Assembly (NCBI GenBank): GCA_964019695.1
Contig: OZ026525.1
Location: 92,847,779-92,911,778 of the forward strand
Source of the DNA: Loripinus fragilis
Taxonomy: Eukaryota; Mollusca; Bivalvia; Lucinida; Lucinidae
Direction of reading: 5' to 3'
Length of the DNA stretch: 64,000 nt
The position numbers and the translations under genes were made by a program. This document shows, one piece after another, positions 3,428 to 57,668 of the stretch (position 1 is its first letter; the number at the start of each line of letters is the position of its first letter). The notes beneath the pieces are model-generated. The model was not told the origin of the DNA and did not search any database. It was given only the letters and a program-made list of their open reading frames with translations.

Positions 3428-3523
3428 TTTACCTTTTTTGTTGTTGATATCAGTGAACAGCTCTTATCTTCCTTTTCCATCTTTTGAGTTCGTTTTCTGG
3501 TTTGCATTTGGACTTATTGTTGG

Positions 3524-4673: not shown

Positions 4674-4786
4674 CTATAAAGTATAATTTCGTGACAGACA
4701 CCAACAAAATAGTAAGGCCATACACAGGTTTAGATCAACCCAATTTTTCAGCGTAAAATAGTAAATATCTTCTTACCCGTCATTTT

Positions 4787-5566: not shown

Positions 5567-5939
5567 CCAGTTGTTTTTCACAGGTCAAGGCGCAAATGCA
5601 TGTATGTAGGTTCTTATTACTTTGGAACTTAACATACTATTACCTTACACTGTACTATTTTAGGCCAAATGAAAAAAAATGCCTTTGTTTAGGGTCACCT
5701 GACTGTACCGAAATTTACTGTCTTTAAAAATGCATATTTTTTTCAGAAAAATAATAATTAAAACAATAGGGCAATAGTGACCCTAAATCGCTCACATGAA
5801 CTATGTGCATCATTCTTGTTCGGTGGAAGGTGATGATTTAAACCATTTGGTGGAGGGCAATCAAGCTGGTCTCTTCCGTAGGATAGGCTTTGAGCGCATA
5901 ACAAGACCCTACCCCCTCACCCTAACCACACAAAAACAT

Positions 5940-9750: not shown

Positions 9751-9768
9751 TTTAATCAATTGAACTAC

Positions 9769-17290: not shown

Positions 17291-17294
17291 GGGT

Positions 17295-18800: not shown

Positions 18801-18804
18801 CACC

Positions 18805-19825: not shown

Positions 19826-19828
19826 TTC

Positions 19829-20119
19829 GTGCCACGTTTGTCTGAACATAAACGACCCGGCGCAATTGGAATGTTAAAAGCTGGGGTGCGTGTTTCTGGC
19901 GTCGCCAGATATAATAATCGCCATCCGTCAGCTATACAGCACCTCAGAGATTGTTACCAGGCTACTAGGACAGTAAAAGGTCGACACAGGCCTGGCTATC
20001 TAAAAATGGCGACTGACATTAAGATGGAAGCTAACGTAGATTATATCGACGATATTTACATCGATGATATCCAACTGGCTACCAACACTGCCAGTCGAAT
20101 AGCAGGGCTCCAAGAGTAA
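19829..20119 (+). pseudogene. Tc1/mariner transposase relic (N-terminal DNA-binding part)
   Basis: The frame encodes a helix-turn-helix region of Tc1 type: R-P-G-A-I-G-M-L-K-A-G-V-R-V-S-G-V-A-R, then H-P-S-A-I-Q-H-L-R-D-C-Y-Q-A-T-R-T-V-K, then a basic R-H-R-P-G linker. This corresponds to the paired-like DNA-binding half that contacts the terminal inverted repeats. The frame ends after 96 residues, well before any DDE catalytic domain, and no terminal repeats are evident. It is a truncated, inactive remnant. Confidence 0.8.
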
Positions 20120-20124
20120 TTTGT

Positions 20125-20461
20125 TTCAGATCTTTAAAAAAACATTTTATTATGATAACTTTAAATCGTGTCCAATTTCAGGACAAATTTCAAATTGCAG
20201 CTTTAGAATCTAAGGGTATTGTCTTTTGATAGACTGCTGCTCTAAAATTATTTATCAGTTTGATATGAAATTTTAATCATGTTTTCTTGACATGTTGATG
20301 TTTATCTTTGACAAATCTCAGATAAAATTGATATATTGAAAAGTAGTTAATTTTATGAATTTCGATTTTTGCGTTTTAAAGACGTTCAGTGTATATTAAC
20401 AATGATAGGCCCCAGGTTCACTGAAATCTAATTTAATTTACTGAATCTCATATTACTTCTA

Positions 20462-20519
<58 letters not shown>

Positions 20520-21185
20520 GAATGGCAAATGAGCAGTTTAAGTGTTAAAAGTGGATATACTTGGTCATTTATTTTAGTACAATTTGAATCATCTTTAATG
20601 TGTGTTGATACTAGGTGTGGAAATTTAGCAAAATGCCTTTAACAGGTCAATTCCATACTCAACACTACTGTTCATGTAAAAAACTATTGTTGAGATTTTC
20701 AAACTTTCTATTTTTTGTATTGTTTTGGTGTCTTAACTATTAAAAGGTGATTGTCACAAAACCAATCTCTTATAAGCAAATGAACAAAGAATTTATAGTA
20801 TGATGCTTAAAAAGTATGCTTTCAAAATAGTAGAGGTAAATTTGTTCTATGCTATTTATGACTATACTAGCATGAATAGTTCAAATTCACTTTTGTTACA
20901 TGTTGCATTCAGCTTTTCATAATATGATATGAACATAGCAAATGATATGCATTTACAATAGCCAAGAATATTCCATGTAGTTTAAGTATCAGTGATAATC
21001 TTAGGTAATTGAAGTTCATAAATGATCAGAAAAGTGATTGAAAGCTAAATGTTAATAATTACACTCATTTTTGACCTTATAATTAATTACATCCAATCAC
21101 TATTATGAAATGAATGCATGAATTACAATTACACGCAATTAGTTAGAAAATGTTATTAAATTACAATTAATTACAAAAAGAATGT
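20125..21185. other. Gene-free stretch with (TTA)n
   Basis: AT-rich sequence. Apart from the trinucleotide tract at 20458-20519 and TTAATTA-rich words near 21070-21180, I see nothing. Confidence 0.5.
20458..20519. repeat. (TTA)n microsatellite
   Basis: About 20 uninterrupted ATT/TTA units. Confidence 0.98.
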
Positions 21186-21189
21186 TAAT

Positions 21190-22000
21190 TATCCCAACTC
21201 CAGTAGCCAATAGGGTTGTGAGAAGAAACTACCATACAGTAAAACTCAGAATGTTCAACAATAGAATAGCAACCTTAGAACGGACAGAAACCCGAACCCA
21301 CTGGGACATGAAGGAAACCAGCATACACCATTGTAGCAGTAAACTTCAGAAATATTGATAAAATATTTGGCACCTTAGGACGTACAGGTACCACAGCCAT
21401 CGAGGTAGGCGGGTAAACCGACATGCACAATGAAAGCTTTAAACTTCAGAAATATTTACAAAATAATTGGCACCTTAGGACATACAGAAACAGCAGCCAT
21501 CGAGGTAGGAACGAGAAATCAGCATGCACAATCGTAGCTGTAAACTTCAGAACTGTATACAAAAGAATTGGCACGTTAGGGCGTACAGAAACCGCAGCCA
21601 ATGGGGTACGACAAAAACCAGCATTCACAATGGTAGCAGTAAACTTCAGAACTATTTACAAAAGAATTGGCACCACAGAGCATACAGAAAACCCAGTCAA
21701 TGGGGTATGAGAGAGAAACCAGCATTCACAATGGTAGCAGTAGACTTCAGAACTATTTACAAAAGAAATGTCACCTTAGGACGTACAGAAACCACAATCA
21801 ATGGGGTATGAAGAAGAAGCCAGCATACACAATGGTAGTGGTATTAGCAACAGAACCGACGTCTTAGGGTGGACGGAAACTGCAGCTATCGGAGTTTGGA
21901 AGAGAATCTACTATACACAATGGTAACAACAAAATAACATAGCTATTAGCAACAGATTCAACGCCTTAGGATATCAGAAACCGCAGGCATCGAGCTGTGA
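21190..22000. repeat. Minisatellite superfamily block 2 (~100-bp monomer)
   Basis: Units of about 100 bp contain AACTTCAGAACTATTTACAA, AAGAATTGGCACCTTAGGAC, GTACAGAAACCGCAGCCA and GAAACCAGCATTCACAATGG (near 21423, 21524, 21625, 21728). The GGACAGAAACCGCAGC and CATACACAATGGTAGC parts are shared with block 1, so these are length variants of one family. Confidence 0.9.
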
Positions 22001-22001
22001 G

Positions 22002-22140
22002 TTTTGTTTGATATGATTATTACTGCCCCAGTCAACATTTTGTCAGTAGTGCCGGGACAGGTCTGGCCGGGTTGAACCAGTCTTAAAACAGGGATATTGT
22101 GTCTTGCTCAAAGATACAACGCAGTGCCACCGGTGATCAT
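22002..22140 (-). mobile_element. SINE fragment (body only)
   Basis: GGTTGAACCAGTCTTAAAAC and CTTGCTCAAAGATACAACGC match the body of the 10363-10566 SINE. The tRNA-like head is missing. It sits inside the minisatellite field. Confidence 0.7.
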
Positions 22141-22326
22141 TCAGGTATGAGGGAAAAAACTGATAGCAGCAATACACAGAAATATATTAAAAACAGAATC
22201 GCCACATTAGAATAGACAGAAACGTCGTGAGGGAGAATCAACCATACACAATCACAGAAATACTGACAACAATATCGCCTCATATTAGAACAGACAGATA
22301 CTGCAGCTACTGGTCGTAAGGGAGAA
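22141..22326. repeat. Minisatellite superfamily, short block
   Basis: Two to three monomers with ATCACAGAAATA, GAACAGACAGATACTGCAGC and TCGTAAGGGAGAA. The block stops abruptly at 22326, where the Penelope-like copy begins. Confidence 0.8.
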
Positions 22327-24238
22327 TATGTCGATGGGCATGGTTGTCATACAGCCCTACATTTCGGTGTCAAAGCTAAAGAAAAATCAAGACAAAGTTC
22401 CTACGTTGTACTGGTTACCTAAACTCCATAAAAACATATAAAGCAAGACTTATTGCTAATTCTAGTTCTTTTACGACAACAGAACTTTCTAAATTGTTAA
22501 ACATGTGTCTTACAGCTATTAAAAACATGTTATCAAGTATTGTGAAAAGGTATATGAGGGATCCGGTAAAAACCTATTTTAGTCTATTAAGAATTCTGAT
22601 GAAATTTTAGATAAACTTAAAGCTAGAGATTTCTATGAGACCAGTTTGTCTACTTATGACTTTTCTACTTTTTACACTACTTTACCTCATATTTTAATTA
22701 AAGATAAACTTATTAATCCTATTGTAAGAACCTTCCAGAGAGAAGGCTCTTATTACCTTGCATGTAACGACAGAAATGCATTTTTAACTTCAGAAAAAAA
22801 ACTAGAAATTATCACACATGGTCATGTCAAAATGTATATGATGCGCTGACCTTTTTGTTGGACAACATTTTTATTCGATTTGGCACCCAGCTGTAAAGAC
22901 AAGTAGTTGGGATTCCTATGGGCACTAATTGTGCTCCCCTGGTTGCAGATTTATTCCTGTTTTGTTATGAGAGGGACTTTATGATGCCTCTTTCTGATGA
23001 TAAGCAGACTGATGTCATTAACGTTTAACACTACTTCTAGATATTTGGACGATATTCTGAACATTAATTATGTTTTTTGACAATATGGTAAGCCAAATAT
23101 ACCCTTCAGAGAGCTCCAACTTAATAAAGCCAATAGCTCTGATACCAAAGCCGCATTTAAGATTATCATTTGTCAATTTATAATGATATTGTTTCTACAA
23201 AAAATTATGATAAACGACTTTGAATTTAAAATTGTCAATTTCCCATTTTTAGATGGCAATGTTCCTCGCTCTACATCCTATGGAGTCTATATCTCTCAAC
23301 TTATTCGTTTTGCTAGAGCATCTAGCTGTGTTGCTGTCTTCAACACTAGCAATAAATTGTTAACTCAGAAACGTTCTTAAACAAGGCTATCGGTATCATA
23401 AACTTTGCATTACCTTTTCTAAATTTTACAGAAGATACTATTATTTGATATCTAAATTAAAGTTGGACTTAAATTTCTCTTGCGCCAAGGACTTTCGGAA
23501 CCTGATTCTATGGTGACTTGGTGTATTTATTGAAGAAGATCATTGGCTCTAATAATTTTCCAGCGCAGTTCATTAAAATAATTTCTCATTATAAAAAGAT
23601 TGGCCATAATATTAATGTATTGCAACAAACTGCATGTTTGGTGGTCAACCCAATCACGGTTGGTCACATTGCTTTCCTCTTTAATTGCACGCCGGTGGGT
23701 TGGACTTCAGACTCTATGATGGTTCCAACTTAAAGACTTATCCATTGATGAGATGGTAGGGGCCTGATGCATTGGCTGTTTGTTGGGCCCACCAGGGTTT
23801 ACCTGTTGGATTTCTTTTGCTCCGGTATTCAGTTTTATTAACTGTTGGGTCCTTATCTTTGCTTTGTCTCCTTGTTATATCTTGATTTATATGTTTTAGG
23901 AGATGATGCATTGACAAGTTAGGGGACTTTCATGCAAACCAAACATCTATGTGTCTTGATCCACATCTGAAATTAGGATGAGGTTGGCGCCGTGAAAACG
24001 GTTTAAGCCATCCAGTAAAATACTTTACTGACCGTTCCAAGGCAGTACTTCTTTTGTGGATCTTTTATGTTTTTCTGTCTTGTGCTTGCTATGCCTTTGT
24101 GCGCGTCTGTTTATAGGTGCCATGTGGTCACCAGCTGGGAAAGGACTGACCTATTGGCTCTCGTGGGTGGTGTCTAACTGTAAGTTTGTTACTTTGCCAT
24201 TGGTATCTTAATGTATCGATTCCTGATCTTTGCACACA
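22327..24238 (+). pseudogene. Decayed Penelope-like retroelement, 5'-truncated copy 2
   Basis: This is the plus-strand relative of the element at 47697-51737. It begins within the reverse transcriptase (V-D-G-H-G-C-H region) and keeps recognisable motif A (S-T-Y-D-F-S-T-F-Y-T-T-L-P-H near 22650), motif B (G-I-P-M-G-T-N-C-A-P near 22910), and a shifted Y-L-D-D block near 23040. It ends with the C-terminal block L-Q-Q-T-A-C-L-V-V-N-P-I-T-V and a 3' UTR ending CCTGATCTTTGCA. Many frameshifts and stops, including TAA, show it is dead. The endonuclease and CxC regions are absent. It splits a minisatellite array. Confidence 0.9.
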
Positions 24239-24249
24239 TATTTACTTCT

Positions 24250-25565
24250 ATCATACAGGGTCGCGAGGCAGAATCTACAATACACAATCACAGAAATATT
24301 AATAACAGTATCCCCTCACATTATAGTGGTAAGACACTGCAGCTACAGGGTCGTGGTGGAAATCTATCTTACACATCACAGATATATTAACAACAGTTAC
24401 CCCTCACCTTATAATGGATAGAAACTGAAGCTACCAGGTCGCGAGGCAGAATCTACAATACACAATCACAGAAATATTAATAACAGTATCCCCTCACATT
24501 ATAGTGGTAAGACACTGCAGCTACAGGGTCGTGGTGGAAATCTATCTTACACATCACAAATATATTAACAACAGTTACCCCTCACCTTATAATGGATAGA
24601 AACTGCAACTACCGGGTCGTGAGGGAGAAACAACAATACACAATGATCACAGAAATATTAAAAAAAGAATCATCGCATTAGAACGGACAGAAACCAAAAC
24701 TACTGTGTCATAAGGGAGAAACTGCCATACACAATCACAGAAATATGAACAACAGTATCCCCTCACATTAAAATGGACATAAACTTCAGGTACCAGATCA
24801 TAAGGGAGAAACTACCATACACAATCACAGAAATATTAACAACAGTATCCCCTCACATTTTAATGGACAGCAACTGTAGCTGCCAGACCATAAGGGAGAA
24901 ACTACCAAACACTATTACAGAAATATTAACACTAGTATCACCTCACCTTAAAATGGACAGAAACTGCAGCTACCAGGTCGTGAGGGAGTAACTACAATAC
25001 ACTATTATCACAGAAATATTAAAAAGAGAATCACCGCATGAGAACGTACAGAAACCGCAGCTAAGGTAATAAGGGAGAACCTACCATTCACAATCACAGA
25101 AATATTACAAACAGGATCGCCACATTTTAAATGGACAGCTAACACTGCTACAGGGTCGTAAGAGAGAAACTACCATATATTGAAGAAAATATCACAACAT
25201 TTGGAGAGACAGAAATTGCAGCTACTGTGAGGGAAAAACTACTCCACACAATCACAGAAATATAACAACAGAATAGCTGCATTAGAACGGACTGAAACCG
25301 CAGCAACCGAATTTTGATCGGGAAACAACCATACGCAATCACAGAAATATTAAAGACAGAATCATCACATAAGAAGGACAGAAACCACAGCTACTGGGTC
25401 GTGAGCGAGAAATTAGCATACACAATGGTGGTAGCAATCCTACGCTAACAACAACAACAGAGTCGTAGCTGTAGAAGAGAACCTACCAATCATGGATACA
25501 GAAATATTTACAACAGATTCGCAACCTTAGGAATGACAGAAATCACAGTTACAGGGCGTGAGGGA
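24250..25565. repeat. Minisatellite superfamily block 3 (~87-bp monomer)
   Basis: Units contain CACAATCACAGAAATATTAA, CAACAGTATCCCCTCACATT, AATGGACAGAAACTGCAGCT and GTCGTGAGGGAGAAACTACC. The first two units are duplicated almost exactly as a ~177-bp pair (24255-24430 and 24430-24605), evidence of recent local expansion. The array resumes directly after the Penelope-like insertion. Confidence 0.9.
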
Positions 25566-25569
25566 GAAC

Positions 25570-25893
25570 CATTTGGTTTGGTTTGTTGCTTTAAATCCCA
25601 TGCAACAGCTATGGTAATGTTGGGACAGTTAGTTTACCTACCACACTTCTTACCTAGGCAAGCTTGAACAAGCGGTTAACCAAATACGTTGTGCAATACT
25701 TACGTTGTAACTGACAGCAGCTCTTCTTGAATGGTTCAGGGGAAGGAGGAGAGTGACCGTAGAACATATTTCATGATCAATCTGCATGAACGTATGAACA
25801 AGGCTGGAATGGAACTTGCGACCCCTGCATCTACAGCTAGATACACATCTGTAGTCAGACACGTTTCAGACTGCTCTATGTGGCCCAGTGAGG
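25570..25893 (-). mobile_element. tRNA-derived SINE of a second family
   Basis: Read on the minus strand: a head GGGCCACATAGAGCAGTCTG, a B-box-like GGGGTCGCAAGTTCCATTCC, a long body, and a tail of AACAAACCAAACCAAA. The head and body differ from the SINE at 8666. It interrupts the minisatellite field between blocks 3 and 4. Confidence 0.7.
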
Positions 25894-26165
25894 GATAATC
25901 GCCAAACACAATCACAGAAATATTAAAAACAGAATAAACACATTAAAATGGACAGACACTGCAGATACCGAGTTGTTAGGGAAAAACTATCATACACAAT
26001 TACAGAAACATAAAAACAGAATAAACACATGAAAATGGACAAACACTGCAGATACTGGGTTGTTAGGGAAAAACTATCATACACAATTACAAAAATAATA
26101 ACAACAGAATCACAATATTAGGAAGGACAGAAACTGCAGCTTTCGGGTCGAAGGTGAAACTACCT
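25894..26165. repeat. Minisatellite superfamily block 4
   Basis: Three monomers with AATCACAGAAATATTAAAAAC, AATGGACAGACACTGCAGAT and TTGTTAGGGAAAAACTATCA. The field ends here. Confidence 0.85.
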
Positions 26166-26221
26166 GATAGTTTGTCATCTGATATTTTTTTTAATTAAGA
26201 AATCATCCAGGATATCATCTG

Positions 26222-29254: not shown

Positions 29255-32200
29255 TTAATTATTAAGTAGTATTTCATATGGTTCCCAATTTTTATTAAAC
29301 TCTGTTAGTTCATTATTTGACAAAGCAATATCTTTAAGTATTTTGAACAATTGATAAAGCTTCTTCTTGTAAACTTCTAGGACCAAGTGACGTTCATTAC
29401 AGCGCGTTGTGTATATGTAGTATTTGGCATAGAGTATTATGATATTAAGTGGTTTTGTTATAGTATTTAATCTATCCGGACCAAAAATAAAAAATTCCTC
29501 CACAAAGTCACACTGTATTTCATAATTATTCAGCCATTGTAACAATTTCTTCAAAAAAGTTTGAATCCTCTCACAGGTCCAGAAGAGATGGGCAATTGTT
29601 TCTTTTTGGGAATGACAGTAATAGCACAATGAGTCTCTCTTTATTTTCATTTTAAAGAGAAGATTGTTTGTCACTAAAATATTATGATAAATAGTCGTCT
29701 GAAACCATTGTATAGCTGGATATTTTATTATATGAAGGGGGTAGTTGTAAATTTTCTTCCATTCTTGGTCTGTGAAATTAAATTTCTCATTCCATCTTTT
29801 TTTACTTGTCGGTTCATCATAGTTTTTATTCAGTTCATTATACATTGCTTGTGTCCCTGAATTTTGTTGCAGAAAAACTTTGATATGACTTGGTATGAAT
29901 GGATCATGTACTTTTTTGGTTAATCTTATTTGTGTATGTGATAGAAAGTGTTATAGTGAGTCTATAAATCCTTAATATTTTAAAATGCTCAACGGGCTGC
30001 CATCAATTTCAACTTCTTGATAGCTATAAAAGCTTTCATTCTGGTTCACCAGATCATTCACAAATCTAATACCTTTATCATACCATGTTTTATAAAAACA
30101 TATTTTCTATCTATTTTAATATTTCTGTTATAGAACAGAGGACTTTTTAAAATTTGTTCTTCACATATTTCTGTTTTATAATTTATATCAAGAAAAGACT
30201 TTAGTACATCTTTCCAAAACTGATTATTCAATGTGCTTAAAATATCCTGAATATATTCTACATTGCATGATGTCAACATTTCCAGATTTATGTGTATTTT
30301 TATTATTTCTTGCCATTTATTTTCATTTAAAAAAAGCCTTCTTATCCAAGTAGATTTTAATGCACTTACAAAGGCATTTAGGTTTATCATATTCAATCCT
30401 CCTTCTATATACTTCATTATCACAACTGTTTTTTTTTAATTTTTGGATTTTTATTCCATAAGAAATCGTACAGAGTTTTATTTATAGTTTCATATATTTC
30501 GACATCTGGATTTGGTAGAGATGTAAAAAGAAGATTAAATATTGGTATAACAAGAGTTTTAATTACAGGTGATAAACTTCGTTTATTCCACTGTTTTAGT
30601 ATCTTTTCCATTTGTGTTACTTTTGGTATATAATCATTTTCTATCATCTTATCTAAATCTGTATTGAAAAGAATCCCTAGTAAATTAAATTGGTTACTAC
30701 CCCATGAAAAGTTCCACTTTGTTTTTATTGACCTGGTACTAAATTTTTCTGAACCAATCCACACCAGTTGTGTCTTATCGAAGTTTATATTTAACCCTGA
30801 TATTTTTGAAAACCTTGAGAGCTCTTCAAGAGTCTGATTGAGAGATCTTTCTGTGCCATCTAGCGTTGCTGAAGTGTCATCTGAGTACTGTGATATTGTT
30901 AATTCAATATTATTGAAATTTATGCCTTTTATTGTTTTGTTTTTCCTTATCTTTGTTGCAAGGAATTCAGCACAAATCAAAAAAGGTATGGAGAGAGGGG
31001 GTCGCCTTGACGACATCCACGCTCTATGTTAAAAAAGAAGACATATGTCCAGATACAGATACTGCTAAGGATATATTTTTATAGCATACTTTTACCCATT
31101 TTCCGATCGAGTCCCCAAAATTTAGATGTTCAAGTGCTGTGTGTAAGAAATTCCATGATAGAGAGTCAAACGCTTTTTCAAAATCCATCAGCAGAAATAG
31201 TCCTGGAGTATTCTTTTCATCTGTAAATTTCATCATGTCATATATTATTCGTATATTTTCCACAATGGATCTACCCTTTATAAAACCTGTTTGATCTTTA
31301 TTTAATTCTATTGGCAATAGTACCTGATGCAAGTTTGTATACAGTATCAAGGAGAGTTAACGGTCTCCAGTTTTTTAAAAAAAATCTTTGGTTTATTGTC
31401 TTTAGGGATGTAAGTAATAATGCCTTGTTTTTGAGTTATGTATAGTTCTCCAATTGTGTAGCCATGATTCAAGGATCTCAGCACAAAAACTTCTAGCTGT
31501 TTCCATAAAAAACTTTTAAAAATCAGCAGAAAATCCACTTAAACCAGGGCTTTTACCATTTTTCATATTTTTAAGAGTACATGAAATTTCCTTTAGGGTT
31601 AAGAGTCCTTCTAATCTATTAGCTTAGTCATCAGTGATAGTTTTCATAGTTTGCCCTACATATTCATTCAGATTGATATCCTCCAACTCTGAGTCCCTAC
31701 TGGAGTACAAGTTTTTATAGAATTGCTCAGTTTCTTTTAATACTGCATTTTGCTCAATTAGGACAGTTCCTTCATCTTTCTGCAAGCTCTGCATTGTTTT
31801 TGAAATATAATTATGTTTTTCAAGCCCACAAAAGTATTTAGTTGGTCTTTCACCTTTATCTATATACTCTGCTCTTGATCTTATCAGGTTACCTTTTAAT
31901 TTTTCTTGTCTTATGTCATGTAGTTCTGTTTTTAATACGTCCAGTTCTCCAAAATTGTTTTCATTTAAATTGATTTCCAAATATGTGATTTTATTAATAA
32001 GATCTTTTTCTAAATTATTTCGTTGTTTATTTTTAAAACTTGCATAAGAAATTGACCGTCCTCTTAATTCCATTAGCAAAACATCTAAAAACAATTGATC
32101 ATTTATATTAAACTGTATTTCTGTGTTAGGAATATTATCTATTTCATAAATATTATACACTGGTAGGGCATTTTTTTTAACATCCAAAATTTTGTTGTTC

Positions 32201-32358: not shown

Positions 32359-32624
32359 AAACCGGTTTAAGCCCTCCAGTTAAATATTTTACTGACCGTT
32401 CCAAGGCGGTACTTCTTTTGTGGATCTTTTATGTTTTTGTTCTGTCTTGTGTTTGCTATGTCTTTGTGCGCGTCTGTTTATATGTGCTTTGTGGTCACCT
32501 GCTGGGAAAGGGCTGACCTCTTGGCTCTCGTTTGTGGTGTCTACTGTGAGTTTGTCACTTTCCCATTGGTATCCTGGGTCAGGTGTGGTACTTGATTGTA
32601 TCGCTTCCTGATCTTTGCACCCTT
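32359..32624 (+). mobile_element. Penelope-like 3' end nested in the LINE
   Basis: This ~266-bp segment is the 3' UTR of the element at 47697-51737 (same blocks: CCAGT(T/A)AAATATTTTACTG, CCGTTCCAAGGCGGTACTTC, GGGTCAGGTGTGGTACTT, CCTGATCTTTGCA). It is inserted opposite to the LINE. ACAT occurs on both sides (32355-32358 and 32625-32628), a likely 4-bp target duplication. Removing the insert restores the LINE frame across L-T-S-E-S-M-S-Q-Y-I-K. Confidence 0.9.
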
Positions 32625-32625
32625 A

Positions 32626-33276
32626 CATACTCTCAGATGTGAGAAAAAAGTCTAATCTAGCCTGCTTAAGCGGGTTTCTTCTCCTCCATGTATAACGTTT
32701 AAGTTGTGGATTACTTTCACGAAAGGGGTCAATAATGTCATTAGTTTCCATGTAATCTAAAAGTAACTCTCTGGATTTGGGGTTATTTATATTTTTGTAA
32801 TTTGAACAATCAATGTATGGATCTAGTACGAGGTAAAAGTCTCCACATATGATATAATCACTATTTCCTATCTCTTTGAGATGCTTAATTATTTTTTGAA
32901 AAGGCTAGGGCTATCAGAGTTTGGACCATATATGTTGATTAAAGTGAATCTTTGTTGCTGAGCTGTTACACCAATCACAAGAAAGTTTCCTTCATTGTCT
33001 TTTATCTGCTTATTAATTTTATATTCTATCTTTTTTTCCAAATAATATTACAACTCCTCTTGCATTTGATCTATAGTTGTTAAAAAGGCACTCTCCTTTC
33101 CATAAATCCAATATTGATCTTTCCTCAGTATCAGTAAAATGTGTCTCTTGAAGACAATAAATGTCACAGTCAGTATTTCTTAATAAATCAAAAATATCTG
33201 TTCTTTTACTTATACCCCCAATACCTTGTGCATTGTATGACAGTATTTTCAACTCAGCCATTTTCATATTGCTCAC
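32626..33276 (-). pseudogene. L1-type LINE: apurinic endonuclease part
   Basis: The N-terminal part of ORF2 starts near the ATG at 33276 and reads K-I-L-S-Y-N-A-Q-G-I-G, then D-I-Y-C-L-Q-E-T-H-F-T: the metal-binding Asn and Glu motifs of the APE-type endonuclease that nicks target DNA. Further on it reads I-I-C-G-D-F-Y-L-V-L-D and R-L-D-F-F-L-T, with frame breaks. The nested Penelope-like fragment separates it from the S-D-H-S motif. No ORF1 was found upstream (above 33276), so the copy is 5'-truncated or lacks it. Confidence 0.9.
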
Positions 33277-44294: not shown

Positions 44295-46920
44295 CGATTT
44301 ATCATATGACATTAAGAATACTTTGAAATCTCATTTCTGACGTAAAAAAGCTATAATTTTGTCATTATGTACGCAACGTTGTTATGGACGTCATAACGTT
44401 TCCCGAAAATCGATAAACCACCAGTGGTTTACAGATTTTATTGCATGGCGTTATTTCACTCCCAGACGCGACGTCATATGATAATTAATCTTCTATGGGG
44501 TTATCTGTGATTTCGCTAAAACACAAATTAGCCTTACCTTGCAAATTCTTAGTTAAACCTAGCATTCGAACACGCCGTTTAAGGGCTATCAATTACCCAT
44601 GGAATACTACTAGTCATCTTGTCTCTGGTGTATGGTTAGTTTTTGGCAGCATCTAAATAACCTGATAACCTGGAAAACGGATACTTTAGAAATAGAGAAA
44701 ACCTACAATATTTGAAAACATAATATTCGATTTTATTGAGTCTATTCATGAGAACTAATGGAAAGTGCAACAATTCACAAGCCCCATAGCACAGGCTTAA
44801 GCGGCATTCTGCTTTCCCTCAGAACCTAATATTCCTGAAGGACCAGAATATGAAAATATCAACACTATATCGATGCACGGGAGACGTTTTACCAACTCCT
44901 CACAGAAACATAACAGTTGTTGTTGCCTCTAATAATTTGGAAAAAACGAATCCTTCAGAAATAAAGGAAAAGGAATAAAAACAAAAGTCAAGTTTATTCC
45001 TTTGTAAAAGCTTGATCACTATGGACAATTGATTTTTTTAATCAGTGATTTGTTTAAACCTCTACCCAGAGTATGTAACAAGATAATCTGATAAATATTG
45101 CAATCGGTTTGGAAGAAAAATGGCAAACATTTTGTAAAAAAAAAATCATTGAAAGCACTGTAAAGTTCACAAAAAGGTATGGACGTCAAAACGTAACTCT
45201 AATTTGTGTTACTTGTCTCACTAATTAAAACTTTAAACAATGATTCGATAGCATATCGTTCAGACTAGATCTTTAATCTCAAGTTTGTCTAATCTCAATG
45301 CAACAGTAACACATCGAAAATGAAGCGTCTTCGAAAAGTTTAAATCGCCCCTTGCCTGTTTCAATAGGACCTTGTGGTGGCATTTATGACAACACAAATC
45401 ATGACATTCAACTGTCCTGTGAATAATTGATCAGTCTTAAATATGAATTAAATACATTTAACATATCACTCACCAATACCCAGAAAAGGTATATATATCA
45501 ACAGTGTAAAGTTACTTTGGTCTTAGGTAAACAATTGTTTATAAAGCACATTTTCTGGTAAATGTGTTAACAATGAATACGAAAAGAAAAATTATGATAG
45601 GATGTTACATAAATGATAAAAGTATTTAATGTTATGATGACACGAAAATGAAAATGCATGAACAACTGTAAAACATATGTGTAAGTTAAAAGCGATACTG
45701 ATTGGCAGATAGTGGCCCGATTTAACGTGCTTCCTGGGAAGGTGGCAACTTAACTGCCACCCCTTTGGTGTGAATTTGCACCTACTCTCATACTTAATAA
45801 GTATGTGGTGAAGCATTTTCCAATAACTAATCTTAAACATTTCTATCTGTTAGTGTTGTCGTTATTCTCTTGGTCAATGCAATCGAATATAACAAAGCTT
45901 TAAAAGCAGTCGCAATTTACACCAGGTATCTGGGGCAGTTAAGCTGTTATTAACTTGTGGAAAGATAATGCTTTTATAGTGCAGGCTAAGATTATTTCAA
46001 CACGAAAAATATGCAATCGGAATGTAGTTCGGGATCAGACTTTAATAAGCACGAAACCCCATTCACAAACACCAATTTTCTTAATCAGACTATTTGTACA
46101 GTAGCAGTCTTATTAGGAAATACCTGTTTGCATTCTTTTGTAAACAAGAAATTTCAACTGCAATGGATTAGTCTCAACCATCTGCATTGTAAATATATGT
46201 GCAAATTAGCACCTAAAGAATGACAGTTGAGCTGGCACATATATTGGTGTAATCTTACACTTATTTTCCTACTAAAACAGGGTGATGCCAGCATCTTTAC
46301 AATGATAAATGTTAACATAGTCAACCAATTTTTGTTGAATCACTACACTTTAAAAGAAAATAACATTATTTAGAGCAGTTTGTTTTAACTGCAGAATGAA
46401 TGAAATTGTGTCATTTTCCAAAATTCTCTTAGATTCTTATCATTGAAGCAAGCTAATGTTGCAATTGATTGATTTGTGAAACCATTGAGCTATTTCAGAC
46501 CATAACACCCAATCTTATTTCTTTTACTTCTAAGTTCTGTCCCTTATAAGTTATATGTCTACAGCAAAAACTGTTGCAAAGTTCGCTATTTTGCAGTTCC
46601 TCAATTCACATAAATTCCATATGATATAGATAAAATTACTTTGGGAATGTTGGGCTCATTGTGTTATTTGACAATTTGGGCCATATTGACTAGTGGACGT
46701 TTTGCTGTAAGAATTATTGTGTCTGGTCGTTATGCTAATCGTTTCTCAGACTGGCGCACTGATTTTGTATAAAATGACAATTTCATTAGGTCCCAAATGG
46801 GTTAAACTGCTTCCAGTTCTAAGGAAGTTGTTTTGATGTTGATTGACTTTTTATTATTTCTTCCTTTTTTGTTTTGTTTTGTCCTTCCATTTTTGTAAGG
46901 TTTTAGTCTACAATTCGTGT
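44295..46920. other. Gene-free region
   Basis: AT-rich sequence with no tandem structure or supported ORF. Confidence 0.5.
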
Positions 46921-46925
46921 TGGCT

Positions 46926-46926
46926 G

Positions 46927-46973
<47 letters not shown>
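46926..46973. repeat. (ATCA)n microsatellite
   Basis: About 12 AATC units. The tetranucleotide matches the tail of the 8666 SINE, so it may mark a SINE tail whose body is no longer recognisable. Confidence 0.95.
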
Positions 46974-46975
<2 letters not shown>

Positions 46976-46979
46976 TTTC

Positions 46980-47690
46980 AATCTGAAATTAAGGCCTCCA
47001 GTCCATTAAAATGATTAATTCAAATACAATTTTAAAGCAATGCCTTAAATAAATATCAACATCGAAGAGCAATCTAATCTTAAGTCTGAGGTTTGTTAGG
47101 AGCATGTAATATTTATGACTTTAAATGTGAGTCGGAAGAAATCAATCTCCGCTTTTAACCTTTTTAACATAGTCACAAAATATATGCCGCCATAGTACCA
47201 GCTGGAACCGCGTCTGGGGGAAGGGTCCCGTGTGGACCCAAAAAGTAATTGCAAAAATATTACATTATTTATATTATTTTTGCTTATTTGAAATCCCCAA
47301 GTTCTATAAATACACGAACCAAAATTAAAAATTGAAAATAGTGTAGACACAAATCAGATTGCTCCATACGGACAGATTGCAGAAAGGCTATCGAACTGAC
47401 AAGACTTACACGCTTAAATGCAGCCGTCCCCATCAGTATTCTCAGTGCTTTGATTGGAATAGTTAAGTTAAGCCTTATTTATCTCCCCATTGCTCTCGGT
47501 TGGAACATCATAAAACATATTTTTGAATAATTTAGATGTATGTCCATTCAAGTCACAAAAATTATTGCATAATCACAGTTTAAAAAATCGATTTTTTTTC
47601 ACAAATGACTTTTAGGGAGATCTCACGCCTTAACAGGACAACTCCTTTGCTCTGGGTATTATTCTCTTCAGCAGAATAATGGATAAATAC
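46980..47690. other. Gene-free stretch
   Basis: AT-rich; nothing supported between the ATCA tract and the retroelement 3' end. Confidence 0.5.
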
Positions 47691-47696
47691 CATAAT

Positions 47697-48217
47697 AAAA
47701 GTAAGTAAGGTTGCAAAGATCAGGAATCGATACAATTAAGTACCACACCTGACCCAGGATACCAATGGGAAAGTGACAAACTCACAGAAGACACCACAAA
47801 CGAGAGCCAAGAGGTCAGCCCTTTCCCAGCAGGTGACCACAAAGCACATATAAACAGACGCGCACAAAACATAGCAAACACAAGACAGAACAAAAACATA
47901 AAAGATCCACAAAAGAAGTACCGCCTTGGAACGGTCAGTAAAATATTTTACTGGAGGGCTTAAACCGGTTAAACGGCGCCAACCTCACCCTTAATTCAGA
48001 TGTGGATCAAGACACATAAATATTTGGTTTGCATGAAAGACCCCTAACTTATCAATGCATCATCTCCTAAAACATATCAATCAAGATATAACAAGGAGAT
48101 AAAGCAAGGATAAGGACTCAACAGTAAATTAAACTGAATACCGGAGCAAAAGAAATCCATCAGGTAAACCCCAGTTGGCCCGACAAACAGCCAAAGCATC
48201 AGGCCCCTACCATCTCA
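47697..48217 (-). other. 3' UTR of the Naiad-type element
   Basis: Follows TGATGA at the C-terminal end of the frame. It is shared with the copies at 22327-24238 and 32359-32624, so its sequence is conserved within the family. It includes a stem CCAGTAAAAT/ATTTTACTGA and a possible long stem TGGGAAAG...CTTTCCCA near 47765-47840. A selenocysteine insertion element would have to lie here; I could not match the SECIS quartet and apical A residues with confidence. Confidence 0.75.
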
Positions 48218-50467
48218 TCAATAGATAAGTCTTTCAGTCGGAACCATCATAGAGTCTGAAGTCCGACCCACCGGCGTGCAATTAAAGAGGAAAGCAAAGT
48301 TGCCAACCGTGATTGGGTTGACTACCAAGCATGCAGTCTGTTGCAATACATTAATGTTATAGCCAATCTTTTTATAATGGGAAATTATTTTAATGAACTG
48401 CGCTGAAAAAATATTAGAGCCAACAATCTTCTTCAACTTATACACCAAGTCACCATAGAAATCAGGTTCAGAAAGTCCTTGGCGCAAGAGAGATTTAAGT
48501 CATACTTGGAATTTAGAAATCAAATCATAGTATCGTCTATAAAATTTTGAAAATGTTTTGCGAAGTTTATGATACCGATAGCCCTGTTTAAGAAGTTTCT
48601 GAGTTAACAATTTATTGCGAGTGTTGAAGTCAGTAACATAGCTAGATGCTTTAGCAAAACGAATGAGTTGAGAGATATAGACTCCATAGGATGTAGAATG
48701 AGGAACATCACCATCTAAAAATGGGAAATTGACAATTTCAAAATCAAAGTCGTCACGTTTATCATAAATTTTGGTAGAAACAATATTATTAGAAATTGAC
48801 AAATGCAAGTCTAAAAATGCGGCTTCGGTATCAGAGGCATTGGCTTTATTAAGTTGGAGCTCTGAAGGGTATATTTGACTAACCATATTTTCAAAATAAA
48901 CATTATTAATATTTAAAATATCGTCTAAATATCTGGAAGTAGCGTTAAACGCATCAATAACATCAGCCTGCTTATCATCAGAAAGAGACATCATAAAGTC
49001 CCTTTCATAACAAAACAGGAATAAATCTGCAACCAGGGGAGCACAATTAGTGCCCATAGGAATCCCGACTACTTGTCTATAGAGCTTGGTGCCAAATCGA
49101 ATAAAAATGTTGTTCAACAAAAAGGTCAGCGCATCACATACATTTTGACACGACCATGCATGATATTTTTTAGGTTTTTCTGAAGTAAAAAATGCATTTC
49201 TGTCACTACATGCAAGGTAAGGAGAGCCTTCTCTCTGGAAGGTTCTTTCAATAAGATCAATAAGTTTATCTTTAATTAAATTATGAGGTAAAGTAGTGTA
49301 AAGAGTAGAAAAATCATAAGTAGACAAACTGGTCGCATTGAAATCTCTAGCTTTAAGTTTATCTAAAATTTCACCTGAATTTTTAATCGACCAAAATAGG
49401 TTTTTACCGGATCTCTCATATACTTTTTCACAATATTTGATAACATGTTTTTTAACAGCTGTAAGACACGAGGTTAACAATTTAGAAAGTTCTGTTGTCG
49501 TACAAGAACTAGAATTTGCAATAAATCTTGCTTTATAGGGTTTTTTATGGAGTTTAGGTAACCAGTACAACGTAGGAACTTTGTCTTGATTTTCTTTAGC
49601 TTTGACACCAAAATGTAGGGCTGTATGACAACCATGCCCATCAACAATCACTTTTTCACTTAAAGAAGGCTGCAGTTTATAGGCATTAGTGTCAACAAGC
49701 TCACGCTTAAGAGTATTAATATAATACAATCGTCAAACAACTACAACATTGTTAGCAGCTTTATCTGCTGGAACCAAAACATAGTTCATATGAAAATCCT
49801 GGATACCTCGTTTAAGATGACGAAAAGAAGATTTAGGTTTAGGGGGCAAAAGATGTGTATTACGAGAGTAAAATGAAATACGAGTATCAATAATTTTAAA
49901 AATGTTAATCTTCCATTCCTTCAAAGCATCAGGTTCAACATTTTCCCATTTGCACCAACGATTACTGAAGTAATTTAAAGAAGCAGCGATCTCTCTACGA
50001 CATTTAGAGAAATCAATATTAGAGGGAAATCTATATTTAGGACCTTTAGAAATGATATTGCGAATTCTAGCGTCAGGAATGACATTTAGATTACCTGTAA
50101 TAACATGCCCTGCAGAGGGATATAAATAATTTGAATTTTTTCAATCTCAGGAGGCAGGAGTATTGGAATCTATATCTAAATCATTTACAATTTTATTAAA
50201 GTTAAATATCGTAGACCTTATTGGTTTGTTATATTTATAACAAATGATAGGAGTTTCAGAATTATTAAAGTAATTTGGAATAGATGAAATCACTGAATTA
50301 TCCTTGAAGATACTATGTAAATCAATAAACTCAATACCTTTGTTAATGAATGGAATTTTGATAAAATGTCGTTTATGGTTGACTTCAGAATCGATATAAG
50401 GACTAAGGAAATGTTGAACATAACACCTTGTAAAGTGCTGCTTTATATAATTTGTTTGCTCTATCAT
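48218..50467 (-). CDS. Naiad-type element: CxC linker, reverse transcriptase and C-terminal block
   Basis: One frame interrupted only by TGA. The start coordinate is the first codon in this frame after a probable frameshift. From the N-terminus: H-F-I-K-I-P-F-I-N-K-G-I-E-F-I-D-L; then P-A-S-[TGA]-D-[TGA]-K, the CxC site; G-H-V-I-T-G-N-L; V-L-V-P-A-D-K-A-A-N-N-V-V-V-V-[TGA]; then RT motif A S-T-Y-D-F-S-T-L-Y-T-T-L-P-H (Asp ~49315), motif B G-I-P-M-G-T-N-C-A-P (~49060) and the catalytic Y-L-D-D (~48920). After a sixth TGA (48500-48502; GGA in the other copy) comes L-Q-Q-T-A-C-L-V-V-N-P-I-T-V. The enzyme would copy element RNA at a nicked target; its reverse transcriptase belongs to the group related to telomerase. 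Readthrough as selenocysteine is inferred. Confidence 0.9.
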
Positions 50468-51375
50468 AAAGTTTATTAGCCTCTAACTCTAAATTGCGTA
50501 AAACTGAGATAGGCAAGGAACTTAAAAATGAAAATAAGCCATGTCGACCATGATTAGTTAAAGCCAAAGAAAGATCCTTTAGAGAAGTATATAAGCGTTT
50601 TTCAGTACAAATTTTGCGCTTAATGTTGCCATTTTTACGTTTACCATGGGATCTACTTTTACGTTTTTTACATTCCAAAACAGAAAAAAACATCAAAATC
50701 TGGCATTTTAGAAATGTTGCCTTCATGGTATATATTATCATTAAAGCCTAAAAGAAAAGGTGATTGCAAAAATTTAATCCATTTAAGTTCAGTTTCATGT
50801 CTCTTAATATTTTTTAATCTAGTTGATGAATTAGGATCATATATAATTTTTTCAACAGGCTGAATTACAATTTTACTAGGTGAATGACCATTATTTTTGA
50901 AATGGCGATAAAGAAATGTGTCAAATTTTTTAGGCTTTTTCATTTTACGAAAGTGCTCACGAAACCTAGTCTTGAGGGATTGCCCAGTTTGTCCAACATA
51001 TTGCATTCCACAGTTAGTTTCAGTTCAAGTTATAACATAAATTAGATCCGATGAAGTTCAGTCCAAATCATTATTATTAATTATGGAGAATTTTCTACCA
51101 TTTACAGATGATGTAATGGTAGTTTTAGTACATAAATGTGCGCAACAGACACACCTCTTCGCATTGCACTTAGAAACATTATGATACATTCCGCGTCTTT
51201 TGAATGCATTAAATGGTTTAGTATACTTCCTGATAATAGGTGACCCAAGAGGAGATAACCTAATGGTAGGAAGCATATCCCGAAAATTGTTAACTGAACT
51301 AGGAATACGAACAGAGGACGCCGAATGTAAACTAATGGGAGATAAATGTAATTTTGTTATTTTCGTTCTTATCAT
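50403..51375 (-). CDS. Naiad-type element: zinc region, GIY-YIG endonuclease and basic linker
   Basis: The frame opens after TAA-TAA near 51435; the first ATG is at 51375. It reads K-C-N-A-K-R-C-V-C-C-A-H-L, then D-L-D-[TGA]-T-S-S-D-L-I-Y-V-I-T-[TGA]-T-E-T-N-C-G-M-Q-Y-V-G-Q-T. L-I-Y and Y-V-G are the GIY and YIG strands, and both TGA codons (51058-51060, 51025-51027) occupy conserved Cys positions. R-F-R-E-H (catalytic Arg), R-H-F-K-N-N-G-H (the His pair of the CCHH motif) and H-E-T-E-L-K-W-I (catalytic Glu) follow. One surplus base in an A7 run (50684-50690) then shifts the frame into a Lys/Arg-rich linker that includes N-H-G-R-H-G-L-F-S-F-L-S-S-L-P, and a second surplus base near 50410 leads into the RT frame. 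The enzyme nicks target DNA to prime reverse transcription. Confidence 0.88.
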
Positions 51376-51739
51376 TAAAAGTTGTGTGGGTAAGTACCAT
51401 CCCAAGACAAGCAATCAACACACCGGTTATTAAAATGACAAGCCAGTATAATATGAGTCCTTAAAAGCAAAGGAAGGTATAACAAATGCAAGCAATAATC
51501 CAAATGGCTAATACAAGTCCACAGATATATAGAAAGCAGAAGTTATACAACGGGGTATGAAAATCGGTCATCTAGTGATCTTAAATGCGGTACAAGACAT
51601 AGAGGATATCCAGGGACAGGAATAATGGAAGGAGATTGTACACACAATCCTGAGGATTGGGAAAATAAGAGCATTAAATGAAAGTGCGGGGAGACTTTTT
51701 AGGGCCACCACGCAGCACAGACAAAACAACTCTGATAAT

Positions 51740-51807
51740 CAAAGTAAGTAAGGTTGCAAAGATCAGGAATCGATACAATCAAGTACCACACCTGACACAG
51801 GATACCA
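51740..51807 (-). mobile_element. Solo 3'-end fragment of the Naiad-type element (tandem remnant)
   Basis: This 68-bp piece matches the last bases of the element 3' UTR (GCAAAGATCAGGAATCGATA, AGTACCACACCTGACACAGG, ATACCA). It lies head-to-tail immediately upstream of the element's 5' end. A fragment cut at the same point (GATACCA) occurs at 57604-57668. It is consistent with a severely 5'-truncated copy abutting the next one, the pseudo-LTR arrangement. Confidence 0.85.
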
Positions 51808-51809
51808 TG

Positions 51810-52150
51810 TCAACTTTTGAAGAAAATGATACGATCAGAATATCAAGATAGACAGGGATACCACAAATCTATATTTACAAATGACAAATCTATATTTACA
51901 AATGATTGGTTACATTTGGTCACATGCTCCCCCATGAACAGTTACATATTGTTGTTAGGTGGGCCTAACCCAAAAAGTAATAGATTGGAAAGGACCTGGA
52001 TTCTAATCCTTATCCTTTTATTTCTATCAAGAAACTGTTATAGTTTTCCCCAGATCTTATGGCCATCTTTACACTTACTTGTTTGTAAACATTAAAATCA
52101 AAATATTTGGATGGTATATTTAGAAATCAGGTGATATTTTGAAAACTATT
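51810..52150. other. Gene-free stretch
   Basis: Contains a direct repeat of AAATCTATATTTACAAATGA (51865-51905) and nothing else I can support. Confidence 0.5.
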
Positions 52151-52155
52151 TGTTG

Positions 52156-52247
52156 TCCGCATGGATAGCTCAGTTAGTAGAGTCGCCGTCAGCAGAAAAT
52201 TCATTTTTTTCCATTATACACAGGTTCAAATCCGACTACTGCATTCA
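52156..52247 (+). mobile_element. tRNA-like sequence (SINE head or tRNA pseudogene)
   Basis: TGGATAGCTCAGTTAGTAGAG is an excellent A-box/D-arm and CAGGTTCAAATCC a good B-box, 45 bp apart. The acceptor, anticodon and T stems do not pair well, so it is not a working tRNA gene. It is most likely the head of a tRNA-derived SINE of a different family from those above, or a tRNA pseudogene. Confidence 0.65.
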
Positions 52248-52254
52248 TTTCTTC

Positions 52255-52755
52255 TTCGCCATTTTTATTGTATACTTTTTACATGTATTCTTACATTATG
52301 TTTAGTCAACAGTTTTAACATGTATACAATGTGTCCCTTAAATGAGACATTAGCAATCTCGAAAACGCATATGCGTGATGCCAGAGAATGCATAAACTCA
52401 ATAGGATATGTACTTTTTGCTGTTATTAAAGCGATATTCAGCAACCGAAATGATTTTGATTTGATTATGAATTATGTTCAAACAATTGTATAAATAAATA
52501 AATAATAAAAAAAAGGTATAGTGACAGGGTTCGAACTCGAAACTTTGCATATGAACCTAAAACGGCTTGTGTGCCGTTTATAAAATATATACCTGTTTCA
52601 TCTTAGCACAAAGTATTATCCACTTCATGTATCGAACCAATTTTACAGATAAACTGATTACCTTATGGTAGAATGCCCTCTGTTTACGTGGCTATATATT
52701 CTTGAACTACGTGTGTCTGCTCGATTAGAATCACAGTTCAAAACTGAAAACAACT
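52255..52755. other. Gene-free stretch
   Basis: A GGGTTCGAACTCGAAAC block at 52527-52543 could be the reverse B-box of another decayed SINE, next to an A-rich AATAAATAAATAATAAAAAA tract. No gene. Confidence 0.45.
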
Positions 52756-52759
52756 ATAC

Positions 52760-53095
52760 GCATAGAAATTGTAGTCAAGGAAGTATTGATCATAAACACC
52801 GTCATTTGTTAAACCAGAGGAAAGGCGGGACACCGTCTGGCCAGAGCTTCGCGCGCACGCACGCACGCACGCAGCACGCACCCACACACACAGACATAAT
52901 ATGTAGACCCAGACCACCAGTAAGACTTCTAGCTTTACTCGAATAGTATACGTGTACATGTGGCATTTTTGAACACATGTTCGACATGTCCCGTTTTCTA
53001 AGTGGCGAACCCATATGGAATTTCGTTGGTGTACGCATTTCTTCTTATTTATACAAAAAAACAAGGTTAGTCATACACACAACTCGTGTTCGTTA
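52760..53095. mobile_element. Dispersed repeat carrying a (CA)n microsatellite, copy 2
   Basis: Homologous to 26640-27035 on both sides of the microsatellite: GAAATTGTAGTCAAGGAAGTA, GGGACACCGTCTGGCCAGAG, a short CGCACG/CACACA tract, AGACCCAGACCA, TACGTGTACATGTGGCATTT and ACTCGTGTT. Here the microsatellite is only ~40 bp and interrupted, against 127 bp in copy 1. Confidence 0.8.
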
Positions 53096-55555: not shown

Positions 55556-55860
55556 ATCATTCTTATCAACTGTTATTTCATTCAATCAAATTTTATAGTA
55601 AAGTTTGAGTTCATTCATGACTGAATATCTGCTGCTACAGGGTTCATTTTTAATAGTAAAAAAGAAAGGGAAATAATTACCATTTCACGTTAAGTTTTAT
55701 GAGCTAAAGGAGTTTTAATCGTGAGAAGAAGAAAAGACTCGAAATTATCTCTGTATAACGATTGCATGGACTCCTAGTGTGTATTGTGTTATACAAAAGA
55801 ATCTTAAAGCGAAGAGGCAATACAACATTAGTTCACTGGCTTAAATATTGATAATATTAG
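55556..55860. other. Upstream flank of the repeat-rich exon
   Basis: No repeat recognised. If 55865 starts a real coding exon, its promoter or 5' UTR would lie here; I see no clear TATA box or initiator. Confidence 0.4.
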
Positions 55861-55864
55861 ACCT

Positions 55865-56603
55865 ATGGCTGAGAGTGCATCGATTCTACCAATACTTGAC
55901 GCCGACGCATATGAAGGTGAAGGTGAGCATGATGTCATATGCGCCAAAGGTGAGCATGATGTCATATTCAGCAAAGGTGAACATGATGTCATACGCAGCA
56001 AAGGTGAGCATGATGGCATATGCGGCAAAGATGAGCATGATTTAATACACAGCAAAGATGAGCATGGTTGCATATGCAGCAAAGGCGAGCATGATGTCAT
56101 ACGCAGCAAAGATGAGCATGATGTCATATGCGGCAAAGGTGAACATGATGTCATACGCAGCAAAGGTGAGCATGATGGCATATGCGGCAAAGATGAGCAT
56201 GATGTCATACACAGCAAATGTGAGCATGGTTGCATATGCGACAAAGGTGAGCATGATGTCATACGCAGCAAAGATGAGCATGATGTCATATGCGGCAAAG
56301 GTGAACATGATGTCATACGCAGCAAAGGTGAGCATGATGGCATATGCGGCAAAGGTGAACATGATGTCATACACAGCAAAGGTGAGCATGATGGCATATG
56401 CGGCAAAGATGAGCATGATGTCATACACAGCAAAGGTGAGCATGGTTGCATATGCGACAAAGGTGAGCATGATGTCATATACAGCAAAGTGAAACCGAAG
56501 AGAAATAGACCGGAAATGGCGGAAGTACATGGTCTTCCTGCAAGGCCATTTCGTCGAGCGAAATCTAAAGGTGCATCGAGGAAGAACTCGTTTACTCAAA
56601 CGG
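55865..56603 (+). CDS. Possible coding exon of 27-bp (9-residue) repeats
   Basis: From an ATG in a fair context (CCTATGGCTG) the frame reads a unique start M-A-E-S-A-S-I-L-P-I-L-D-A-D, then about 21 units of nine residues such as K-G-E-H-D-V-I-R-S, K-G-E-H-D-G-I-C-G and K-D-E-H-D-V-I-H-S. A unique basic tail follows (V-K-P-K-R-N-R-P-E-M-A-E-V-H-G-L), then a strong splice donor ACGG|GTAAGA at 56603/56604. The unique, non-repeat ends and the donor favour a real first exon. Against this, the 27-bp repeat is open in nearly all six frames, so ORF length proves nothing, and unit differences are mostly amino-acid changing. No known family recognised; function unknown. Confidence 0.5.
55912..56490. 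repeat. 27-bp minisatellite with higher-order structure
   Basis: Consensus AAAGGTGAGCATGATGTCAT then ACGCAGC. Units differ at a few fixed positions, and a six-unit (162-bp) pattern is repeated from about 56074 and again from about 56236, so recent expansion copied blocks rather than single units. Confidence 0.95.
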
Positions 56604-56817
56604 GTAAGATACAAGTGTATATAAAAATCAAGCGAACTACATGATATAAAATGTGTTAATTTTAATACAGTTTAAAAATCGGGTTTTGCTTTTGTAATTT
56701 AGTTCCAATAATCAAGCGAAATGTATTATGGAATGATACTGCACTTTGTTTTGTCTAGTTTTACTTTTTAGCGTTTTGAATAATAGGGACGCTTTTTAAC
56801 ATTTTTGCAGAGCAAAC

Positions 56818-57304: not shown

Positions 57305-57603
57305 ATATGGTCTTTATTTACAGAGAATAGAGAGATTGTAAAAAAGATGTTTTGTTTACCTGTTTACTACTTTAGACATGAGTTTCCCTTACATTGGCTT
57401 AAATACTATACTATATTCAGAACTTTCAACTATTAGACTAAACTAAAGCGCCTTAAAATGCCATCACTATAAATTAACGGGTTTAATTTTGAAGAAATCT
57501 GTGTTTCCAATTCCTATATGGTACACCATCTATATGGTACACGCTGCCATTTGACACCCATGAAACGATATTATGGGTCAGCACACGAGATTTAGTTACA
57601 AAG

Positions 57604-57668
57604 GAAGTAAGGGTACAAAGATCAGGAATCGATACAATCAAGTACCACACCTGACCCAGGATACCAAA
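57604..57668 (-). mobile_element. Isolated 3'-end fragment of the Naiad-type element
   Basis: TACAAAGATCAGGAATCGAT, AAGTACCACACCTGACCCAG, GATACCA: the same ~65-bp tail as at 51740-51807 and truncated at the same base. Confidence 0.85.

Follow-up and report, generated by a model that had tools for sequence, protein, structure and literature searches.

Naiad-type elements and a locus in Loripinus fragilis

Naiads are Penelope-like elements with a C-x-C motif in their linker and no canonical hammerhead ribozyme. Members with multiple selenocysteines are said to have been described from clams and spiders by Craig, Yushenova, Rodriguez, and Arkhipova in 2021 (Mol Biol Evol 38:5005). Here we analyse a 64,000-nucleotide stretch of the genome of the lucinid clam Loripinus fragilis (GenBank assembly GCA_964019695.1, contig OZ026525.1, positions 92,847,779 to 92,911,778; hereafter the window), which carries on its minus strand a damaged copy of a Penelope-like element that appears to be of the Naiad type. 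The likeness to the Naiads reported by Craig et al. lies in an N-terminal GIY-YIG endonuclease, a probable C-terminal reverse transcriptase (RT), a linker of the C-x-C type, terminal repeats, a high copy number, and several in-frame TGA codons; features of the present element's own are four candidate selenocysteine (Sec) sites and a putative selenocysteine insertion sequence (SECIS) that overlaps the end of the open reading frame (ORF). With canonical Penelope-like elements, such as the Anolis element of PMC11167929, it shares an RT, a GIY-YIG endonuclease, and pseudo-long terminal repeats (pseudo-LTRs), whereas the endonuclease is C-terminal there and precedes the RT here.

Judging from sequence, it is very probable that the locus belongs to a young, abundant Naiad-type family in which UGA at codons 106, 117, 410, and 548 is read as Sec via a 3′ SECIS. 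Intact members would encode a single protein of about 1047 residues (GIY-YIG endonuclease, linker, and RT), with decoding of the UGAs directed by a SECIS hairpin located 1.5 to 2.8 kb further 3′ on the same RNA. Most likely the Sec sites take the place of cysteines, with Cys seen directly at codon 548 only. In the animal, the UGAs would be decoded as Sec, the hairpin would bind the SECIS machinery, and Sec would matter for enzyme function. This reading draws on TGA fixed at four sites, open frames, selection on the protein beyond the TGAs, alternation of TGA with Cys at one site, and a hairpin present in two families. A preliminary description had likewise proposed a Naiad-type selenoprotein, which is supported, albeit with four Sec sites and not six.

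Architecture of the element

The element and its parts are as follows.

47692..51807, minus strand: endonuclease-first Penelope-like element, damaged copy, delimited by terminal repeats, with GIY-YIG and then an RT-like part, and with copies elsewhere in the genome
51735..51807, minus strand: 5′ terminal repeat (pseudo-LTR), 73 nt, 96 per cent identical to 47692-47764
47692..47764, minus strand: 3′ terminal repeat (pseudo-LTR), partner of the 51735-51807 repeat
50695..51375, minus strand: N-terminal portion of the ORF, containing the GIY-YIG endonuclease (PF01541)
50433..50687, minus strand: central segment of the ORF, put out of frame by two frameshifts in the window copy
48233..50428, minus strand: linker and RT part of the ORF, with a YLDD box at 48931; the RT family assignment is tentative

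The element was correctly recognized beforehand as an endonuclease-first Penelope-like element: its 73-nt terminal repeats are 96 per cent alike, and the N-terminal piece of the ORF, with TGA read through, matches the GIY-YIG family PF01541 in Pfam (E 1.1e-5). That piece alone gave the match, which is absent from full-length Pfam scans of two intact copies. In the RT part, a YLDD box and a GIPMGTNCAP block can be read from the translation. The order GIY-YIG then RT within one ORF points to a Naiad-type element, the RT half of this assignment resting on these motifs and a weak profile match. The linker carries a motif of the C-x-C type in the form U-D-C (TGA...TGT, 50149-50141), with Sec counted as Cys; a U-x-U motif was considered and rejected, as the second codon is Cys across the family, hence U-x-C. 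No Rfam match to a hammerhead family with an E-value of 5 or less lies in 46500-53000. In 9 of 30 loci, one strand carries two or more exact occurrences of a 14-nt word from the terminal repeat; the flanks of the loci are possibly too short to hold both repeats. Searches of PDB sequences with the element protein returned chance matches only.

In-frame TGA codons across copies

With two single-base frameshifts allowed, the window copy reads through 1050 codons with six TGAs and not a single TAA or TAG. Both the frameshifts and the six stops (51060-58, 51027-25, 50149-47, 50143-41, 49735-33, and 48502-00 on the minus strand) are as the preliminary description gave them. A DNA search of the genome (1.987 Gb, 685 contigs) yielded 6508 candidate places, the best 40 of which were scored and gave 41 matches with 97-100 per cent identity. 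Codons were tabulated over 40 copies, comprising 30 loci (the window included) and 10 further places that are 5′-truncated relative to the query; the compared copies are the best-scoring ones and not a random draw from the candidates. The sites, with pieces of a second family (family B) and a relative, L012, that are both introduced below, are as follows.

51058..51060, minus strand: candidate Sec site 1, codon 106; TGA in 34/34 readable copies and in family-B piece L068
51025..51027, minus strand: candidate Sec site 2, codon 117, between the GIY-like and YIG-like motifs; TGA in 35/35 readable copies and in L068
50147..50149, minus strand: candidate Sec site 3, codon 410, in the linker motif U-D-C; TGA in 39/40 copies and GGA in 1; TGA in 4/4 family-B pieces
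49733..49735, minus strand: candidate Sec site 4, codon 548; TGA in 40/40 copies; TGA or TGT in family B, TGT in L012
50141..50143, minus strand: TGA in the window copy at a Cys site of the family; TGT in 38/40 copies, TGA in 2/40
48500..48502, minus strand: TGA private to the window copy, not a Sec site; GGA (Gly) in 39/40 copies, Gly also in an older copy at 22329-24254
48233..48235, minus strand: place of the family TAA terminator, lost in the window copy; TAA in 38/40 copies; inside the SECIS-like hairpin, beside its apical AAA

Pooled across copies, the codon counts separate four TGAs that are features of the family from two (50143 and 48502) that are damage in the window copy. Tabulating TGA against other codons in this way, as had been proposed, gave fixed TGA at four sites, together with Cys as the family codon at 50143 and Gly at 48502. 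An early estimate of chance from the six TGAs (0.25^6) is superseded by these counts. A tandem TGA TGA at 48220-48215 was rejected as the terminator, being in phase only through the window copy's loss of TAA, a loss that the preliminary description does not mention.

When TGA is read through, 16 of the 30 copies have a frame that runs uninterrupted between the first TGA site and the TAA at 48235, and 14 of these 16 contain exactly the four family TGAs; the two off-pattern copies are L032, with one extra TGA, and L027, which lacks the TGA at 50149 and has a stray one. The whole 1047-codon frame, from the equivalent of 51375, is present in 10 of the 22 copies with a mappable start (one of the ten begins with ATA, and another is L032 with its extra TGA). 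Apart from the four sites and the terminator, 13 stray stops (6 TAA, 5 TGA, and 2 TAG) are spread over the 30 copies; the window accounts for two of the TGAs, and a single change present at two loci for two of the TAAs. Since the stray stops include all three kinds, stray decay is mixed, in contrast to the uniform four sites. The older copy in the window conforms to its earlier account: it holds one TAG and two TAAs in ungapped codons, a fourth stop there, a TAA, being the family terminator.

Protein-level selection acts downstream of the TGAs. Codon positions 1/2/3 account for 129/154/336 of the differences among the 30 copies, and distinct variants after the last TGA (49732-48503) fall 40/37/76 (P 2.2e-5 against equal shares); the 3′ untranslated region (UTR), read in the same phase, has 13/9/10.

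A second family and distant relatives

Relatives outside the assembly were found in a collection of bacterial and archaeal genomes, where three confirmed records, all RT fragments, come from symbiont-type assemblies. Two of the three assemblies are labelled as bivalve material, namely Bathymodiolus septemdierum and a gill sample labelled Ctena (a lucinid clam); the third is a Thioglobus assembly. These RT pieces are most likely animal host DNA contamination, and they point to a bivalve as the probable host of the element, in line with the clam or relative proposed in the preliminary description. A whole-genome search of the three assemblies found L012, in a mussel-symbiont assembly, which has TGT at site 49735. 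Queries with the endonuclease and linker found no relative covering 51060, 51027, or 50149 in the same three assemblies. As a separate observation, Penelope-like RT pieces occur in the Thiodubiliella, Thiodiazotropha, and Thioglobus assemblies as L001, L002, L003, and L005-L012, again most likely as contamination from the host. Scans of viral contigs returned no homologue, a 14-residue match (L004) being judged due to chance.

A search of the clam's own genome with L012 as the query gave 8123 candidates, and the best 150 were scored. By our recount of the table, 145 of these 150 rows have a TGA inside the match (138 a single TGA, 2 two TGAs, 4 a TGA and a TAG, and 1 a TGA and a TAA), and the other five comprise four stopless rows and one with TAA only. 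Twelve rows were fetched, namely all four without a stop, the one with TAA only, and seven more; among the 138 unfetched rows, the position of the TGA within the match was read only for L067-L069. The 12 fetched pieces are 74-77 per cent identical in DNA to the window at that stretch, and at codon 548 they have TGA in seven, TGT in three (L055-L057), TTA in one, and TAA in one (L059). The TGT of L055-L057 was read from the printed letters, and that of L056 is confirmed by L070, which is from the same place.

Longer family-B pieces (L067-L070) have TGA at 50149 in all four and at 49735 in three, with TGT in L070. L068, the sole piece reaching 51060 and 51027, has TGA at both and so at all four sites; L067 and L069 have TGA at both sites they cover. 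Not all of these pieces are intact: L068 has a stray TAA, and L067 has one stray TGA and one stray TAA. The proteins of the window's family (family A) and family B are 67-70 per cent identical over the aligned stretches (59-73 per cent by segment), and the third codon position differs most between the families in every segment compared (116/64/226 in L068 after codon 548). Many Cys columns are TGT or TGC in both families, and TGA stands in Cys/Sec columns only at the four sites, one stray in L067 aside. L070/L056 is itself a Sec/Cys mosaic, a family-B copy with TGA at 50149 and TGT at 49735.

The preliminary description had placed four of the TGAs at structural cysteines. The number four stands, and the copies decide which four; Cys in a relative was found for 49735 only (in family B and in L012), and alternation of TGA with Cys was not found at 51060, 51027, or 50149 in these comparisons.

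A putative SECIS overlapping the ORF terminus

The window was searched on both strands against Rfam with matches listed at E up to 10; the gathering score of RF00031 (SECIS_1) is 35. SECIS_1 is listed only twice in the 64 kb, at homologous places of the two long copies.

48188..48258, minus strand: SECIS-like hairpin, its 5′ arm coding in the family (RF00031, 24.5 bits)
23708..23778, plus strand: SECIS-like hairpin of the older copy (RF00031, 23.0 bits)

The E-value of the window hairpin is 2.3, or about 5e-4 for SECIS_1 alone after division by 4227 families. SECIS_1 scores 25.0 bits in 5/5 young copies tested (of the 30 loci) and 26.5-27.5 bits in 4/4 family-B pieces. The fold consists of AUGA, 12 nt, AAA, and a helix II with one mismatch, to which family A adds a mini-stem of six pairs; the AUGA core, apical AAA, GA quartet partner, and helix are found in both families. 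The layout in family A is Form 2, and according to PMC3328465 Form 1 SECIS elements had not been found in invertebrates. In simulated sequence, a hairpin with at least nine pairs and a mini-stem of six arises about 0.01 times per 128 kb (one in 12.8 Mb).

Between the families, the 10 pairs of helix II comprise five that are invariant, two with changes on one side, and three with unpaired cells; 86 per cent of helix II cells pair, compared with 30-58 per cent when slid. Among the 30 copies, 6 of 2130 cells of the SECIS stretch differ (0.28 per cent), compared with 0.65-0.81 per cent in the coding and UTR stretches compared, and three of the 10 further copies have one SECIS difference each, one of these in the mini-stem. 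The hairpin is supported by its motif, position, and conservation, and not by energy z-scores. Locus L028 has two SECIS matches on the same strand (1501-1571 and 5545-5615), separated by about 4 kb, which is what tandem copies would be expected to show.

In intact family-A copies and in 4/4 family-B pieces, the reading frame extends across the AUGA core and the 5′ strand of helix II, which are encoded by conserved C-terminal codons, and it stops at a TAA that provides the apical AAA with its first two As. Distances from the TGAs to the core are 2811, 2778, 1899, and 1485 nt (three copies measured). Overlap of a SECIS with coding sequence is also found in fowlpox GPX4 (PMC6769590), an enzyme gene whose reading frame contains the SECIS and for which one UGA is described; here there are four UGAs and the 5′ arm alone is coding. 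We speculate, with little confidence, that ribosomes finishing the protein melt the SECIS and so turn off Sec insertion on that RNA for a time, which could act as a brake on the transposition enzyme: because each finishing ribosome must melt the SECIS, decoding would switch off further Sec insertion.

Weighing the selenocysteine reading

A number of observations weigh against the reading of the four UGAs as Sec in a Naiad-type protein. All SECIS scores fall under the Rfam gathering score, so that the search proposed in the preliminary description produced a hairpin at the same place in both families but a sub-threshold one. The simulation criterion was chosen after the structure was seen, and if the mini-stem is not demanded (nine pairs), 0.8 hairpins per 128 kb are expected; a looser scan also matched elsewhere in the window, at the unrelated position 45594, and within the coding sequence of L068 and L069. 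Hairpin energies are ordinary (z -0.85 to +0.09), and no pair of helix II has changed on both sides in a compensatory way between families A and B. Cys alternation is confined to one of the four sites (49735). Among young copies, no third-position excess is seen in 50428-50150 (10/12/10) or in 48499-48236 (10/15/12). Additionally, the RVT_1 match reaches only 12.2 bits, under the cut-off, leaving the RT assignment by profile weak, and AlphaFold models of both ORF parts are unusable (mean pLDDT, the predicted local distance difference test score, of about 32).

Readthrough of UGA without Sec, either by suppression as Trp or Arg or through a general reassignment in the host, survives best among the alternatives and is very unlikely. 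It would accommodate the sub-threshold SECIS scores, and the support for Sec comes from sequence only. Yet the recurrent other sense codon at 49735 is TGT, and not TGG or CGA; the other Cys columns, compared between families A and B, are without TGA; and both families retain the SECIS-like hairpin at one position.

That the TGAs reflect random decay in a dead copy deserves hardly any credence as an account of the four sites, for which it is refuted; it is true for 50143 and 48502. The window copy is indeed broken, with two frameshifts that were not found in the other 29 loci, two further stops, and a lost terminator, and two of its six TGAs are absent from nearly all other copies. The other four sites, in contrast, are TGA in nearly every copy, 14 of the 30 copies have a frame otherwise uninterrupted between the first TGA site and the terminator, and the four sites are kept in a family that is 67-70 per cent identical.

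It is scarcely credible that the TGAs genuinely terminate translation, with each piece produced as its own protein: the TGAs do cut the frame at the endonuclease and ahead of the RT core, but the first two are just 11 codons apart, the third is one codon from a conserved Cys codon, codon 548 is Cys in some family-B copies, and the third codon position differs most between the families throughout.

Other features of the window

Besides the damaged copy, the window contains three further pieces of the element.

22329..24254, plus strand: older, decayed, 5′-truncated copy of the same family, 89.5 per cent identical
32360..32631, plus strand: short fragment of the 3′ end of the element, 97.4 per cent identical over 272 nt
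57599..57667, minus strand: short terminal fragment of the element, 94 per cent identical over 68 nt

The older copy has 12 small indels in its coding part and sits inside a long degenerate array of short repeats at 17200-26200 (gaaaccagcatacacaatggtagcag-like, by eye). Elsewhere, a broken LINE-like (long interspersed nuclear element-like) element, whose RVT_1 and zf-RVT matches in Pfam fall in different open pieces, lies at 29258-31356 (minus strand), and pieces of Mutator-like transposases and a YqaJ-like domain lie at 2468-4734 and 9755-10255 (minus strand). The stretch 55832-56641 has frames open on both strands; it is repetitive and built of a short repeated unit.

Significance

This kind of element has reportedly been published already for clams, and the family described here is a well-supported new example of it. 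The family offers a copy-rich test case of a multi-selenocysteine mobile enzyme, with dozens of near-identical copies in one genome (and thousands of candidate places). The same genome holds two diverged families that share TGA sites, with TGA-to-Cys conversion at one site, and a putative SECIS whose 5′ arm and apical AAA are common to the reading frame and its terminator. A reading under the standard genetic code would mistake such elements for pseudogenes.

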